Source: Verrucomicrobia bacterium LW23 (lineage in GTDB: Bacteria; Verrucomicrobiota; Verrucomicrobiia; Methylacidiphilales; UBA1321). Taken from it: a stretch of DNA of 64,000 bases. The number at the start of each line of letters is the position of its first letter. The first letter of the stretch is position 1. The notes under the pieces were generated by a model that was not told the origin of the DNA, searched no databases, and saw nothing but the letters and a program-made list of their open reading frames with translations. Shown here one piece after another: positions 12,913 through 19,560 of the stretch. A program made the position numbers and the translations under genes. The DNA is taken from assembly GCA_003054695.1 (NCBI GenBank), contig QAZA01000045.1, forward strand, positions 1-64,000. The letters are read 5' to 3'.

Positions 12913-14035
12913 ATGGGTAAAGATTCGATTTTCGATTTTAGTGAGATAGAGGCCCGCCTGCAGCAGCTCCGGAGGTTTCTTTGACAAGGCCGAGCTTGCT
13001 CCGCGCCTGGCTGTACTAGAGGAAAAGATGGCCGCCGGCGACTTCTGGAACGACCAGGCCGCCGCGCAAAAAGTCATTACGGAGGCCAACCAGATTCGCG
13101 GGCGCCTCGAGCCCCTCGCCTCGCTCATCACCCGCATGGACGACCTGAACGTGCTGGCCGAGCTGGCGCTGGAGGACGAAAGCGGCGATACCGACAAAGA
13201 GGTCGCCGCCGAGCAAAAGAAGCTGGAGAAAGACCTGAGCGACCTGGAGCTGAAAGTGCTCCTCGGCGGCCCGCAGGATCCCAACAACGCCATCATCTCC
13301 CTGCACGCCGGCGCCGGCGGCACGGAGGCGTGCGACTGGGCGAGCATGCTGCTGCGCATGTACCAGCGCTTTGCGGAGCGCGCCGGCTATAAAGTCGATA
13401 TTCTCGACATTCAGCAGGGCGACGAAGCGGGCATCAAAACCGCCACGCTGCACATCAAGGGCGAGTACGCCTTCGGCCGCCTTAAGGCGGAGCGCGGCGT
13501 GCATCGCCTGGTGCGCATCTCGCCGTTCAACTCCGCCGGCAAACGGCAAACCTCCTTTGCCTCGCTGGACGTGGTGGCGGAGATTGAGGACGATATCGAT
13601 ATCGTAGTGGAGGACAAGGACATACGCGTAGACGTGTACCGCGCCGGCGGCCCCGGCGGCCAGGGCGTCAACACCACGGACTCCGCCGTGCGTATCACCC
13701 ACATCCCCTCCGGCATCATCGTTACCTGCCAAAACGAGCGCAGCCAGATCAAGAACCGCGCCACCGCCATGAGCGTGCTCAAAGCCCGCCTTTACCAGGT
13801 GGAGATGGACAAGAAAAAAGCCGACGCCGAAAAGATGTACGGCGAAAAAGGCGAAATCGGCTGGGGCCGCCAAATCCGCAGCTACGTCCTGCAACCCTAC
13901 CAGAGCGTCAAGGACCTGCGCACCGGCCAAGCCACCGGCGACGTCCAGGCCGTCCTCGACGGCGAAATCAACGACTTCATCGACGCCTTCCTGCGCGGCA
14001 AAAAGCGCACCGATGTCGACGACGATGAGGAGTAG
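12913..14035 (+). CDS. prfB: Peptide chain release factor 2 with programmed +1 frameshift
   Basis: RF2 recognises UGA and UAA stops and triggers peptide release. Reading starts at ATG 12913 (MGKDSIFDF) and runs to CTT TGA at 12979-12984. Skipping one T continues as DKAELAPRLAV and onward for a total of 373 residues. The site has the classic elements: an internal GGAGG (12971-12975), TTT CTT TGA and a C after the stop. The protein contains the GGQ motif (GGPGGQGVN) and the SPF tripeptide (RISPFNS). The in-frame UGA is autoregulatory: low RF2 favours the frameshift. Confidence 0.97.
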
Positions 14036-14209
14036 GCGGGAGGCGGAAAGAACAACAGCACAGCGTGTTGCCTGCGGGCGCAATGCGCGGCATCGCAACG
14101 AATTAGGCTGGACGACGAGGATTCCCGCCGTTAAGTTGGTCAACCGCCGCGCCTGCGCTCCCGTCGCGGCGCGGCGCCCTCCGCTTTCGCCCGCTCTTTT
14201 CCCCCCCCC

Positions 14210-14965
14210 ATGCAACCCCTGCCCATCCGTCGCCACCGCTCCGCACGCCCTGCATCTGGCTGTACCGAAACGGCTTTGGCGGGCGTATGCACGGGGGCGG
14301 CGCGGATCAAACCCTGCCGGCCGTCGCCGACCGTCGGCACGGCGGCATCCACCGGTGGCACCGGCACGGGCAGCACTCCGCGGCTGGTGCGTCGTGTTAC
14401 GCCCGCCGCCTGCCTTCTGGCCGCCGCCGCCACGTGGCTGACGTGGCCCCTGGTTCCCGCCGCGCATGCGGAGGCCCAGGCTCAGCCCCCCGCCGGCGCC
14501 GAGCAGACGCCGGCCACCCCGGCCGAAAAGCCCGCCCGGCCCGCGCTCCCGCCACAGCCGCACGCGTCGCTCGCCGTCACCAGGGCGGACTACAGCGCGG
14601 ACGGCAGGCTGGTGCTGTGCGTGCGCATCGGCGCCCCCACCCGGGAGGTTAGCCTGGGGATCTCCACCGACACGGAGAAGGCGGAGGCTTCGCCCTTTAC
14701 CATGGACGGCAGCTACCTGGAGGGCACTACCTCCAAAACCAAAATCCCCGCGCTGGCGGACCTGCCCAAAAAGCCCTATTTCGGCCCCAACAACGCCGTC
14801 ACCCGCATCCCCAAAGGCGGCTGGCTGGAGCTCTCCGTCGCCTTCCCTGCCCTGCCCGCGCCTGCCGAAGGCGCCCCGGCCGAGACCTACTCGCTTCACA
14901 TCCCGCAACTGCGCCAGGAGCCGGTTGTGCTCAAGAATCTCCCCGCGCCGCCGTCCCCCAAATAG
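14210..14965 (+). CDS. Hypothetical exported protein
   Basis: Up to 251 residues. A hydrophobic segment with a typical AHA cleavage site (residues about 66-88) is followed by an Ala/Pro-rich linker and a roughly 130-residue beta-rich domain. The first 60 residues are low-complexity and basic; a GTG at 14387 directly before the signal-like segment may be the true start. The leader has a run of C and no Shine-Dalgarno. It lies between prfB and the ffh unit on the same strand. No family recognised. Confidence 0.6.
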   Translation: MQPLPIRRHRSARPASGCTETALAGVCTGAARIKPCRPSPTVGTAASTGGTGTGSTPRLVRRVTPAACLLAAAATWLTWPLVPAAHAEAQAQPPAGAEQTPATPAEKPARPALPPQPHASLAVTRADYSADGRLVLCVRIGAPTREVSLGISTDTEKAEASPFTMDGSYLEGTTSKTKIPALADLPKKPYFGPNNAVTRIPKGGWLELSVAFPALPAPAEGAPAETYSLHIPQLRQEPVVLKNLPAPPSPK

Positions 14966-15059
14966 GGCGATTGCTGACGCCCCCGCCTTCTCCGCGATAG
15001 ACCGCCGCCCCAAAATGTGCTTGGATGGGGCCAACCCCAAGGGAAGGAGACGGATCGCC

Positions 15060-15386
15060 ATGGCCCGACGCCCGCTCATAAACCTGCAGGATTTTCTCGA
15101 GCATGTTCAGCTGATGCGCAGCGACGACTTTTATGAAAAAGTCGCGCACACCTCGCCTCAGCTCGCGCGATTTTTCGAAGAACGCAATCCTCGTTTGCTG
15201 CGGCGCATTGAATCTATTATTCTCTCCATGACTATTTTTGAGCGGCGCAACCCGCGCGTGCTCAAGCTTTCCCTCAGCCGGCGCGCGCGCGTGGCGGTGG
15301 GCAGTGGCGTCCCGATGTCACACATCGACGACCTGCTCCAGCATTTCTTTCACATGCAACATTACATCGACGGCCTTCAGTCATGA
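15060..15386 (+). CDS. Stand-alone SRP54 M-domain-like protein
   Basis: A 108-residue protein that aligns by eye with the M domain of Ffh. INLQDFLEHVQLMRS matches the start of the M domain, RRIESIILSMT matches the helix RIEAMIHSMT seen in the neighbouring Ffh, and RRARVAVGSG with SHIDDLLQHF matches the SRP RNA-binding GSG helix-turn-helix. The NG GTPase domain is absent. The Met/Gly-rich finger loop that binds signal peptides is replaced by a short charged segment (residues 20-45). A good ribosome site (AAGGAGA) precedes the ATG. Its TGA overlaps the ffh start as ATGA, implying translational coupling. It may bind SRP RNA without binding signal peptides. Confidence 0.75.
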   Translation: MARRPLINLQDFLEHVQLMRSDDFYEKVAHTSPQLARFFEERNPRLLRRIESIILSMTIFERRNPRVLKLSLSRRARVAVGSGVPMSHIDDLLQHFFHMQHYIDGLQS

Positions 15387-16786
15387 TCAACCAGCTTTCA
15401 GACAAACTCCAGGGCATCTTCAAAAAGCTGCGCGGTTACGGCAAACTTTCGGAAAGCAATGTGGCCGAGGCGGTTAAAGAAGTGCGCATGGCACTCCTGG
15501 CCGCCGACGTCAACTACGCCGTCGTCAAGGACTTTACCGAAGAAGTAAAGAAGCGCGCCCTGGGCAAGGAAGTGCTCGATGCCGTCCAGCCCGGCCAGCA
15601 GTTCATCAAAATCGTTCACGACGAACTGATCGCCCGCTTTAGCGACGCCGAGCCCGGCCTGTCCAAAAACCGGCCCCTGCGCGTCCTCATGGTCGGCCTC
15701 AACGGCGCGGGTAAAACCACCACTTCCGCCAAAATCGCCCTCTTTTATAAGCAGCGTAAGCAGAACGTGTTGCTCGTCGCCGGCGACTTGATGCGCCCCG
15801 CCGCCATCAAGCAGCTGCAAACTCTCGGCCGCCAGATCGGCGTGAACGTGCTGGCGTACCCGGACGAGACCGACGTGGTGAAGCTGGCCCGCGAGGCCCG
15901 CGCCGAAGCGGAACGCCTTCGCGCCGAAGTGGTTATCTTTGACAGCGCCGGCCGCCTGGAGCTGGACGAATCGCTGCTGGCCGAGCTCAAGGCGATCAAC
16001 GGCGTGTGGGATCCGCAGGAGACCCTGCTCGTCGCCGACGCCGCGACCGGCCAGAACGCGGTGAACGTGGCGCGGCACTTTGCCAGCACCGTCAGCCTCA
16101 CCGGCCTGGTGCTCAGCAAGTTCGACGCCGACGTGCGCGGCGGCGCGGCCCTTTCCTTTCAGCATGAGGCCAAAGTGCCGATCAAGTTCCTGGGCACCGG
16201 CGAAGCCGCCAACATGCTGGAGGAGTTCCATCCGGATCGCCTTGTCGGCCGCATGCTGGGCATGGGCGACATTGTAAGCTTTGTCGAGAAGGCGCAGCTG
16301 CAGTTTGACGAGAAGAGCGCCGAGGCGATGGGCAAGAAGATGATGGCGGGCAAGTTTGACCTGCAGGACTTTCTGAGTCAGATGAAAATGATGAAGAATA
16401 TGGGTCCCATACAAAATTTGCTTGCGATGATACCTGGAATGTCTAATATCAACATTTCCTCCAATGATCTGAAGCAGCTGGGACGCATTGAGGCCATGAT
16501 TCACTCCATGACCCCGGATGAACGCAAAAATCCGGATATCCTCAACGCCCGCAGGCGCTTGCGCATTGCGAACGGGAGCGGGACAAGCGTCTCGGACCTG
16601 AACGACATGCTTCGGAAATTTGGTACGATGAAGGAAATGATGTCCGCCTTTACCAAGGGCGGCAACCCCCAGGATATGCTTCAAAGGCTGATGGGCGGGG
16701 GAGGACCTGGCAAGGGACCTGGCGGTCCCGGCGGGTTCCCTGGATTTCCCCCGGGTCGCCCCGGCAAGAAACCCAAAAGGCGATAA
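15383..16786 (+). CDS. ffh: Signal recognition particle protein Ffh (SRP54)
   Basis: A complete 467-residue SRP GTPase that targets ribosomes making membrane proteins to FtsY. N domain about 1-95. G domain: GLNGAGKTTTSAK (G1), DSAGRLELDE (G3, usually DTAGR), SKFDADVRGG (G4 region, usually TKLDGDARGG) and the closing GTGE motif. C-terminal M domain with a Met-rich loop (MKMMKNMG) and the GSGTSVSDLNDML RNA-binding motif, then a Gly/Pro-rich tail ending in KPKRR. It overlaps the preceding M-domain-like gene by 4 bp. The G3 and G4 deviations are conservative and it is probably active. Confidence 0.97.
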   Translation: MINQLSDKLQGIFKKLRGYGKLSESNVAEAVKEVRMALLAADVNYAVVKDFTEEVKKRALGKEVLDAVQPGQQFIKIVHDELIARFSDAEPGLSKNRPLRVLMVGLNGAGKTTTSAKIALFYKQRKQNVLLVAGDLMRPAAIKQLQTLGRQIGVNVLAYPDETDVVKLAREARAEAERLRAEVVIFDSAGRLELDESLLAELKAINGVWDPQETLLVADAATGQNAVNVARHFASTVSLTGLVLSKFDADVRGGAALSFQHEAKVPIKFLGTGEAANMLEEFHPDRLVGRMLGMGDIVSFVEKAQLQFDEKSAEAMGKKMMAGKFDLQDFLSQMKMMKNMGPIQNLLAMIPGMSNINISSNDLKQLGRIEAMIHSMTPDERKNPDILNARRRLRIANGSGTSVSDLNDMLRKFGTMKEMMSAFTKGGNPQDMLQRLMGGGGPGKGPGGPGGFPGFPPGRPGKKPKRR

Positions 16787-16860
16787 GCGGCGCTGCGAAG
16801 CGCTGAGCAAAGCACATCATTCGAGAAGAAGAAGAGCAGCAGAACAAGGAAAGCACTACT

Positions 16861-17136
16861 ATGGCCGTTTCGATTCGTCTGCGCCGCGAGGGCGCAAAGA
16901 ACAACCCTTACTACAAGATCGTCGTTGCCTCCAAGCAGGGCAAGCGCGACGGCAAATTCATTGAGCAGGTCGGCACGTACGACCCGAAGAAGAAGGACAA
17001 CAACTTCAACCTCAAGCTCGATCGCGTGAACTACTGGCTCGGATGCGGCGCACAGCCCAGCGACACCGTCGCCAGCTTTGTGAAGACCGCCCGCAAGACC
17101 GCCGAAGCCGCCGCGGCCGCCGCTGTCTCCAGCTAA
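16861..17136 (+). CDS. rpsP: 30S ribosomal protein S16
   Basis: A 91-residue protein starting MAVSIRLRREGAKNNPYYKI, the hallmark of bacterial S16, with GTYDPKK and an Ala-rich C-terminal tail. It binds 16S rRNA and assists 30S assembly. It lies 74 bp after ffh, the common ffh-rpsP order, and is likely co-transcribed. rimM, trmD and rplS, often next in this operon, are absent here. Confidence 0.97.
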   Translation: MAVSIRLRREGAKNNPYYKIVVASKQGKRDGKFIEQVGTYDPKKKDNNFNLKLDRVNYWLGCGAQPSDTVASFVKTARKTAEAAAAAAVSS

Positions 17137-17766
17137 AGCCAGGCCAGGCGATTGCCGCCGGCGCAATCCGCACGGTGGCAGGACGTTCCCTCCATCGCTC
17201 AGCCGCTTCCGAATATTCGCGCTCTTCCAGCCCCCACCCCGCACGGGCGGGGCCAGGCGCGAGAGAAGTACGGAATTGCCCGAGCCTCGTACACCTGTAT
17301 TCAGGCGCCCAAGCTTGCCTTCTCGTTTAACGAGGGTGGAAGCGAAAGGCGCCCACATGCATTTCTTTCGTCCTGGCGTCGTTTTCTGGAGCACGGCAAG
17401 AAGCCAGTGCGCCTTTTGGTCAGTGCCTTCCACAATCGACCCTGGTGACTTTGCGCCTTGGTGGCTAATCCCCTTTCCCTTGCCATATTAGCCCGCGCAA
17501 AAATCGGACTAAATCGGATCGGTTCCAGTTGTCAAACGCGCGTGATGGGTTAAGCTGCGTTGTCTCACTAATTCACACGGCAAAATCTTGTCGGCCGTGC
17601 GTCTTATCGTCTCCCTGGCCCGCTGTCGTTTTCGGCGGGGCGGGGCGGATCAGCCTGGCTTGCCTCCCAGACGGAAACGCTCTGCGCGTTGCTGTTGAGG
17701 GGCGAGTCTGGCGTTGCGTCACAAAGCAGTGCCATCGTCACATAACACCCAACTAACTTCACGTCC
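17137..17766. other. Non-coding gap with a repeat half-site
   Basis: About 630 bp between rpsP and the flotillin gene. No convincing protein or structured RNA was recognised. One half of a CTTGGTG-type repeat (CCTGGTGACTTTGCGCCTTG then GTGGCTAAT) is at 17441-17469 without an obvious opposite arm, so it may be a decayed hairpin. Confidence 0.5.
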
Positions 17767-19560
17767 ATGCCCGAAAACCTACCTGATATCGTCTTCTACC
17801 TCGCCATCGGCGGCGCCGTTCTCTTCGGCATTGTGTGCCTTCTGGGCATCCTCACGCGGCTTTACGTTCAGGCAACCAAGGATCGAGCGTACGTGCGAAC
17901 GGGTATCGGCGGGCAAATGGTGGTGATGGACGGCGGCTCGATTGTGCTGCCCGGTTTCCACCAGATTTTGCCCGTCAACATGCTGACCACGCGCCTTACC
18001 GTAACCCGCCGCAACGAGCAGGCGCTGATTACGCAGGACCGCATGCGCGTGGACGTGGACGCCGAGTTTTACGTGCGCGTGCAGCCCAACAAGGATTCCA
18101 TTGCGATGGCCGCCAGCTCGCTGGGCAACAAAACGCTCAATCCCATTGAGGTCAAAAGCCTTATGGAAGGCAAGTTCGTCGACGCACTGCGCTCCGTAGC
18201 CGCCGAAATGACGCTGGAGCAGCTGCACGAGCGCCGCGCCGAGTTTGTGCAAAAGGTGCAAAGCGCCGTGGCGTCCGATCTCTCCAAAAACGGCCTGGAG
18301 CTTGAGACTGTGTCGCTTACGTCCCTGGACCAGACGCACAAGAGCTTTTTTCAGGAGCAAAACGCCTTCGACGCGCAGGGCCTGGCAAAGCTGACGCAAC
18401 AAATCGAGCAGCGCCGCAAGGAGCGCCTGGCGATCGAAGCCAGCACGCAAGTGGAAATCAAGCGTAAGCAGGTGGAGGCCGAGCGCGAGACGCTGGAGCT
18501 GAACCTGCAGGGCGAGACGCTGCGCCTGAACCAGGAGCGCGAAGTGGAAACGCTGCGCGCCCAGCAGGGTGCCGACCTGAAAATCATTGCCGCGCAACGA
18601 GATCAGGAAGCCCGCATGGCGGCGATTGAGGCCGAGCGCAAGGTTACCGAGGTCAGCATCTCCACGGAGCAAATGCTGAACGCGCGCCGCATTGAGGCGG
18701 ACCGCCAGCAAAAAGAGGCCCAGCTTGTCGCCAACCGCGAAGTTGAGATCGCGTTGAAGGACAAGGAGATACGCGTGGCGCAAAAGAGCCAGGAAGAGAA
18801 TCAGGCCAAAGCCGCCGCCGCCGAAGCCCGCGCCCTGGCCGTCAAGGCCGAGGAACAGGTTGTGACCGCCAAGGCCGTGGCCGAGGCCGAGCGTAATCGC
18901 CAGATCTCCCTGGTTCAGGCCGAGGAAGTGGCGCAGCGCGACGCGGTGAAAGTAACCGTGCAGGCCGAAGCCGAGCGCAAAGCGGCCGAAAACCGGGCCG
19001 AAGCCGTGCTGACGGAAGCCCGCGCCCGCGCCGCCGCTGAGATGGAGATGGCCAAGGCCACGTCCACAGGCACCCGCATGCAGGCCGGCGCGCTGAAGGA
19101 GCAAAACGAGGCGGAAAACATGCTGAGCGAGGAACTTATCGCGCTGCGCATCAAGCTGGCGACGATTGAGCGCCTGCCGGAAATCATTGCCGCGGCCACC
19201 AAGCCGATGGAGAGCGTAAGCAACGTCAAGATTGTGCACTTTAGCGGCCAGGGCAACCCCATGGCTCAGGGCGCGGGCGTGCCCGGCGGCGGTGCCGGCA
19301 GTGGCGCGGCGGGCGGGCCGGTGGACAGCCTGGCCCAGGCGTTGCTGTCCTACCGCGCGCAGGCCCCCGTCATCGACTTCCTGCTGAAGGAGTCCGGCGT
19401 AACCAGCCAGGGCCTGGAGTCGCTCGTCAGCAATGTGCCGGTCGACGCCAAGGCGGCCAACGGCTCGGCCGCGTCGCACGGCTCCACCCGCGTGGATTCC
19501 GCCAAGCCGACGCCTCCTGCCCCACCGACGCTGCCGCCCGCGCCCTCGCGGCTGGGCTAA
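17767..19560 (+). CDS. Flotillin-like SPFH/band 7 protein
   Basis: 597 residues. An N-terminal membrane segment (about residues 8-32) is followed by the SPFH domain, with the typical GSIVLPGFHQILPVNM and VDVDAEFYVRV stretches. A very long charged coiled coil (about 210-450, rich in AEAE, RRKE and EREV) leads to a Gly/Ala/Pro-rich tail. This is the YqiK/flotillin architecture: oligomeric membrane scaffolds organising lipid domains. No NfeD-type partner is adjacent. The gene ends 4 bp into the convergent uracil-DNA glycosylase gene. Confidence 0.88.
   Translation: MPENLPDIVFYLAIGGAVLFGIVCLLGILTRLYVQATKDRAYVRTGIGGQMVVMDGGSIVLPGFHQILPVNMLTTRLTVTRRNEQALITQDRMRVDVDAEFYVRVQPNKDSIAMAASSLGNKTLNPIEVKSLMEGKFVDALRSVAAEMTLEQLHERRAEFVQKVQSAVASDLSKNGLELETVSLTSLDQTHKSFFQEQNAFDAQGLAKLTQQIEQRRKERLAIEASTQVEIKRKQVEAERETLELNLQGETLRLNQEREVETLRAQQGADLKIIAAQRDQEARMAAIEAERKVTEVSISTEQMLNARRIEADRQQKEAQLVANREVEIALKDKEIRVAQKSQEENQAKAAAAEARALAVKAEEQVVTAKAVAEAERNRQISLVQAEEVAQRDAVKVTVQAEAERKAAENRAEAVLTEARARAAAEMEMAKATSTGTRMQAGALKEQNEAENMLSEELIALRIKLATIERLPEIIAAATKPMESVSNVKIVHFSGQGNPMAQGAGVPGGGAGSGAAGGPVDSLAQALLSYRAQAPVIDFLLKESGVTSQGLESLVSNVPVDAKAANGSAASHGSTRVDSAKPTPPAPPTLPPAPSRLG

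Follow-up and report, generated by a model that had tools for sequence, protein, structure and literature searches.

Directly ahead of the ffh gene, within the 64,000-nucleotide stretch of DNA analysed here (the window), we found a 108-residue gene whose product is a free-standing Ffh M domain. It keeps the residues of the RNA-binding motif, the loop that holds cargo in Ffh is replaced, and there is no GTPase part. The usual view of SRP in bacteria is of a single protein and a single RNA, to which Gram-positives add YlxM. Tentatively, and judging from sequence features, we propose that the small protein may be a cargo-blind M domain that occupies the SRP RNA and tunes Ffh.

Having the RNA grip but neither cargo nor GTPase function, such a natural, free-standing M domain would offer a separation-of-function reagent ready for use. 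It would also give a first hint that a bacterium may control SRP through a decoy protein, and would be a counterpart, in a free-living cell, of mL105, the M-domain relic of mitochondria.

An M domain on its own

At the sequence level, the Pfam M-domain family PF02978 (SRP_SPB) matched residues 8-101 of the small protein with 58 bits against a curated cut-off of 27 (E 1.3e-15). It was the only Pfam family to appear at E up to 1, and UPF0122 (YlxM) was not matched. The match to the Ffh profile TIGR00959 was confined to the M-domain end (positions 327-425 of 428) and scored 48.7 bits, under the cut-off of 473; the adjoining ffh product scored 533 bits against the same cut-off. Solved Ffh M domains also matched the small protein (best E 1.4e-8), as did the paralogous M domain of the neighbouring Ffh (16352..16642, + strand), with 34% identity and E 1e-14. 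The small protein is very divergent: its identity to the Ffh proteins seen did not exceed 41%.

The initial annotation had read these 108 residues as an M domain lacking the GTPase domain, and had suggested a profile search with the SRP54 M domain. The homology was borne out by PF02978, by the end of TIGR00959, by solved structures and by the genome's own Ffh. The protein is homologous to Ffh over the last quarter but has neither the N nor the G (GTPase) domain, both absent in the Pfam and TIGR00959 searches.

Compared with the M domain of Ffh/SRP54, the likeness extends to the whole-domain sequence, the predicted fold and the RNA-binding helix-turn-helix. The helix-turn-helix, with the GSG motif already noticed in the initial annotation, is retained as S73-R74-x-x-R77-x-A79-x-G81-S82-G83 (S73-R-R-A-R-V-A-V-G-S-G83; 15276..15308, + strand) in the alignment, and its conserved columns are kept. 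The residues of S-R-x-x-R-x-A-x-G-S-G are those that we take to be the RNA contacts, following the published structures of the E. coli M domain with RNA. All eight invariant columns of a 46-row alignment are kept by the small protein, among them D11, the M57-T58...E61 signature, R74, R77, G81 and G83.

The differences are that the protein is free-standing, that the finger loop is replaced, and that two residues are inserted before the RNA-binding helix (KLSLS vs. LNA). The cargo finger loop of Ffh (MG...MIPGM) gives way to residues 21-43 (15120..15188, + strand), for which the alignment and models indicate two short predicted helices. Residues 2-43 hold one Met, whereas 45 Ffh average 4.1 (range 1-8), and two glycines, the invariant one of 'MG' and that of 'IPG', are missing, in line with the missing Met-rich loop first noted from the sequence. 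Among columns conserved at 80% or more in the 45 Ffh, the small protein matches 16 of 22 in residues 44-102 and one of five in the finger-loop residues 20-43, both small counts. Within the limits of such counts, this is the pattern expected if RNA binding had been kept and cargo binding dropped.

At the structural level, AlphaFold2 predicted the helical fold of an M domain, which had been proposed as a check in the initial annotation, with a pLDDT of 89.3. The input alignment consisted of 45 Ffh M domains alongside the small protein, so the model is pulled towards that fold; the sequence evidence for an M domain is independent of it. Every significant Foldseek match to the model was an SRP chain. 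VIA-align gave Z values of 13-14 (about 14 overall) across 1hq1, 1dul, 5gaf and 4xco: 14.4 to 4xco, 14.1 to 1hq1 (76 residues, 1.1 Å) and 13.0 to 1dul (69 residues, 0.8 Å). Both 1hq1 and 1dul show E. coli M domains in structures determined with RNA. In the place of the finger loop the model has two short helices, at residues 22-31 and 33-41. A control model of the genome's own Ffh M domain, obtained by the same procedure, shows instead a loop of low confidence (residues 27-38).

Gene boundaries and the ffh locus

The gene for the small protein (15060..15386, + strand) runs from an ATG at 15060 to a TGA stop at 15384-15386 and encodes a product of 12.8 kDa with a pI of 10.3. A ribosome-binding site, AAGGAG (15044..15049, + strand), lies 10 nt 5' of its ATG. 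By codon use, the frame at 15060-15386 scored best of the six. A 306-aa in-frame protein from an upstream start at 14466 was ruled out, since the stretch before 15060 is not coding-like in its codon use.

The full-length SRP GTPase gene ffh (15383..16786, + strand), with N, G and M domains according to TIGR00959 and Pfam, has its ATG at 15383. The small gene's stop and the ffh start share the four letters ATGA (15383..15386, + strand), exactly as the initial annotation had placed them. No Shine-Dalgarno site was found ahead of ffh, a weak test because orfU, the flotillin gene and tatD of the window likewise have none. Since ffh has no Shine-Dalgarno site of its own and starts inside the ATGA overlap, translational coupling of the small gene to ffh is plausible.

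Downstream of ffh lies rpsP (bS16; 16861..17136, + strand). It adjoins ffh in 20 of the 20 relatives examined, which shows that the small gene occupies the native locus of ffh. Contamination is unlikely, because a single 1-Mb contig carries both the small gene and the SRP RNA and the ffh-rpsP linkage is as in the relatives. Further downstream is a gene for a flotillin/Band_7 protein (17767-19560). On the other side, a 251-aa ORF (14210-14965, + strand) separates prfB (13028-14035, + strand) from the small gene; Pfam gave nothing for it up to E 5, and tblastn did not find it near ffh in 20 relatives.

The G+C content at third positions is 0.68 in the small gene (15060-15383) and 0.66 in the M-domain region of ffh (16352-16642). 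It is higher elsewhere, with 0.83 in the NG part of ffh and 0.82-0.86 in the neighbouring genes.

Distribution and origin

The initial annotation had suggested a survey for conserved linkage of such an ORF with ffh, and none was seen: an intact second M domain was absent from 11 family relatives, from the other genomes of the order and from a class survey of 384 genomes with PF02978. A phylum survey of 388 genomes (BLAST at 1e-12) added no further case; in these surveys the window's genus was represented by its own species alone. When 147 M-domain loci were rechecked locally, two M domains were found only at the window's own locus.

Six genomes of the class had two PF02978 matches, none with a second intact M domain. 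In three of them (G119, G237 and G262) ffh is split at contig ends, and in two (G123 and G248) the additional matches are sub-threshold and lie in long unrelated frames. The sixth, G235, was rejected as well: its second match is what remains of an ffh M domain, a 3' piece of 41 aa (L044 1-404, G235:C49). This remnant is found behind an unrelated small ORF, and a full-length ffh is present elsewhere in that genome.

Other searches were also negative. A scan of a collection of genome contigs with the small protein as query gave none, and a scan with the Ffh N domain yielded 80 diverse named loci, close relatives not among them, and no second M domain. Phage and plasmid collections held no stand-alone relative – their annotated matches were ffh, and several of the records were chromosome-sized – and viral contigs held none either.

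The small protein likely arose as a partial copy of ffh. Its branch in the tree is very long, with 3.2 changes per column, and with such a branch the AU test neither supported nor rejected sisterhood with the genome's own Ffh (p 0.10). The branch length also fits relaxed constraint. A duplicate of the ffh 3' end that is specific to this lineage and has no selected function of its own, serving as a leader ORF that carries ribosomes into ffh, would agree with this unrejected sisterhood, with the occurrence in one genome only and with the position directly before a gene that has no Shine-Dalgarno site of its own. We consider it unlikely, however. The 108-codon frame is intact and coding-like in codon use, and every invariant M-domain column is kept despite the low identity to Ffh, where neutral decay would erase these columns. 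True debris looks different, as the piece in G235 illustrates. Divergence this high in a protein whose frame and RNA-binding residues are both intact argues for selection, and against a recent or neutral dead copy.

Possible roles beside Ffh

PF00448 matched at two places in the genome, one for Ffh and one for FtsY, and Rfam recognised a single SRP RNA (contig C45 1003876-1003963, minus strand; L049 1501-1588, minus). The RNA scored 35.5 bits, under the Rfam gathering score of 40, with the CAGG/AGCA core and the GAAA tetraloop intact. It is divergent, since the SRP RNA of G012, from the same order, scored 51.8 bits. One domain-IV-like site was found in it; with one recognisable SRP RNA, one RNA site is visible for two M-domain proteins.

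An RNA grip without a cargo loop or GTPase would allow no targeting by itself, and the simplest role for the small protein would be to occupy SRP RNA. It would be made just before Ffh and together with it, their amounts being linked by translational coupling. It would then bind the same SRP RNA as Ffh, at the Ffh site in domain IV, and would be unable to hold a signal peptide or to engage FtsY. As a cargo-blind partner or competitor, it would set the supply of SRP RNA for Ffh, either by storing free RNA or by damping SRP. That the two M-domain proteins share one SRP RNA, with the cargo-blind and GTPase-less one made in fixed proportion to full-length Ffh through coupling and acting as a built-in brake or reservoir, is possible, though we hold this specific form with some doubt.

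Several points stand against a tuning role. The second M domain occurs in one surveyed genome only. Two residues are inserted ahead of the RNA-binding helix, and the long branch agrees with relaxed constraint as well. And by analogy, the precedent of MAP67/mL105 points to the ribosome rather than to SRP RNA.

On the ribosomes of mitochondria, an Ffh M domain is found by itself, as MAP67/mL105 (PMC8321541, PMC7326499, PMC9576764). In a non-exhaustive search of the open literature, we found no bacterial stand-alone M-domain protein of this kind. The initial annotation, which knew of no described bacterial SRP with two M-domain proteins, is borne out within this search; the described stand-alone case is mitochondrial. 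Like the small protein, MAP67/mL105 is an Ffh-derived M domain without the NG domain. Unlike it, MAP67/mL105 is mitochondrial, is bound to the ribosome at the exit tunnel and has no ffh partner gene; the identity between the two is 7-17%, a value that comes from the structural match alone.

A comparable ribosome-associated M domain in this bacterium would sit at the polypeptide exit near uL23 and guide or shield nascent chains without SRP RNA or GTP. We regard this as improbable, even though mL105 occupies the tunnel exit without an NG domain and our model also matches the mitoribosomal chains 9i05_AI (Z 10.0), 6z1p_AT (Z 9.8) and 7pkt_S (Z 8.3). Bacterial M domains gave much higher Z values. 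Moreover, such a role would not need the SRP-RNA-binding motif, yet the motif is fully kept, and what has changed is the cargo loop, the part that a nascent chain would encounter.

YlxM (UPF0122) is the SRP accessory of Gram-positives, likewise a small protein, and its gene adjoins ffh. YlxM binds both Ffh and the SRP RNA, and it modulates the hydrolysis of GTP (PMC8546722). By analogy, it may serve as a precedent for a small protein that is encoded beside ffh and binds both partners. The protein described here could also be a subunit of the working particle, attached either to Ffh or to the SRP RNA at a second site, and could stimulate targeting as streptococcal YlxM does. This, too, seems improbable to us: it belongs to a different family and is not homologous to YlxM (PF02978, not UPF0122), and the SRP RNA shows one domain-IV-like site only.

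Ribosomal-protein operons are a known case of autogenous regulation, and the same logic could apply to a gene that sits just ahead of ffh with a translational overlap. The small protein would then recognise, in its own mRNA, a hairpin resembling SRP RNA and, when SRP RNA is scarce, would shut off translation of itself and of ffh. We consider this very improbable, as no SRP-RNA mimic was found in the mRNA near ffh: Rfam gave no SRP-RNA-like or other credible match at 13900-17200 on both strands, even at E 5.

Apart from the small protein, the surveys touched on a different fate of SRP in the same order. To our knowledge, SRP is usually called universal. In family f4 (genus g6), represented by G014, G022, G027, G031, G046, G056 and 15 further MAGs (63-96% complete), neither PF00448, which would catch both Ffh and FtsY, nor PF02978 had a match in any of the 21 MAGs, and the SRP RNA (RF00169) had none in the six tested. 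Ffh and FtsY were detected in the controls G012 and G000. It looks like this family has lost the entire SRP pathway; SecY is present in all six of the MAGs tested.
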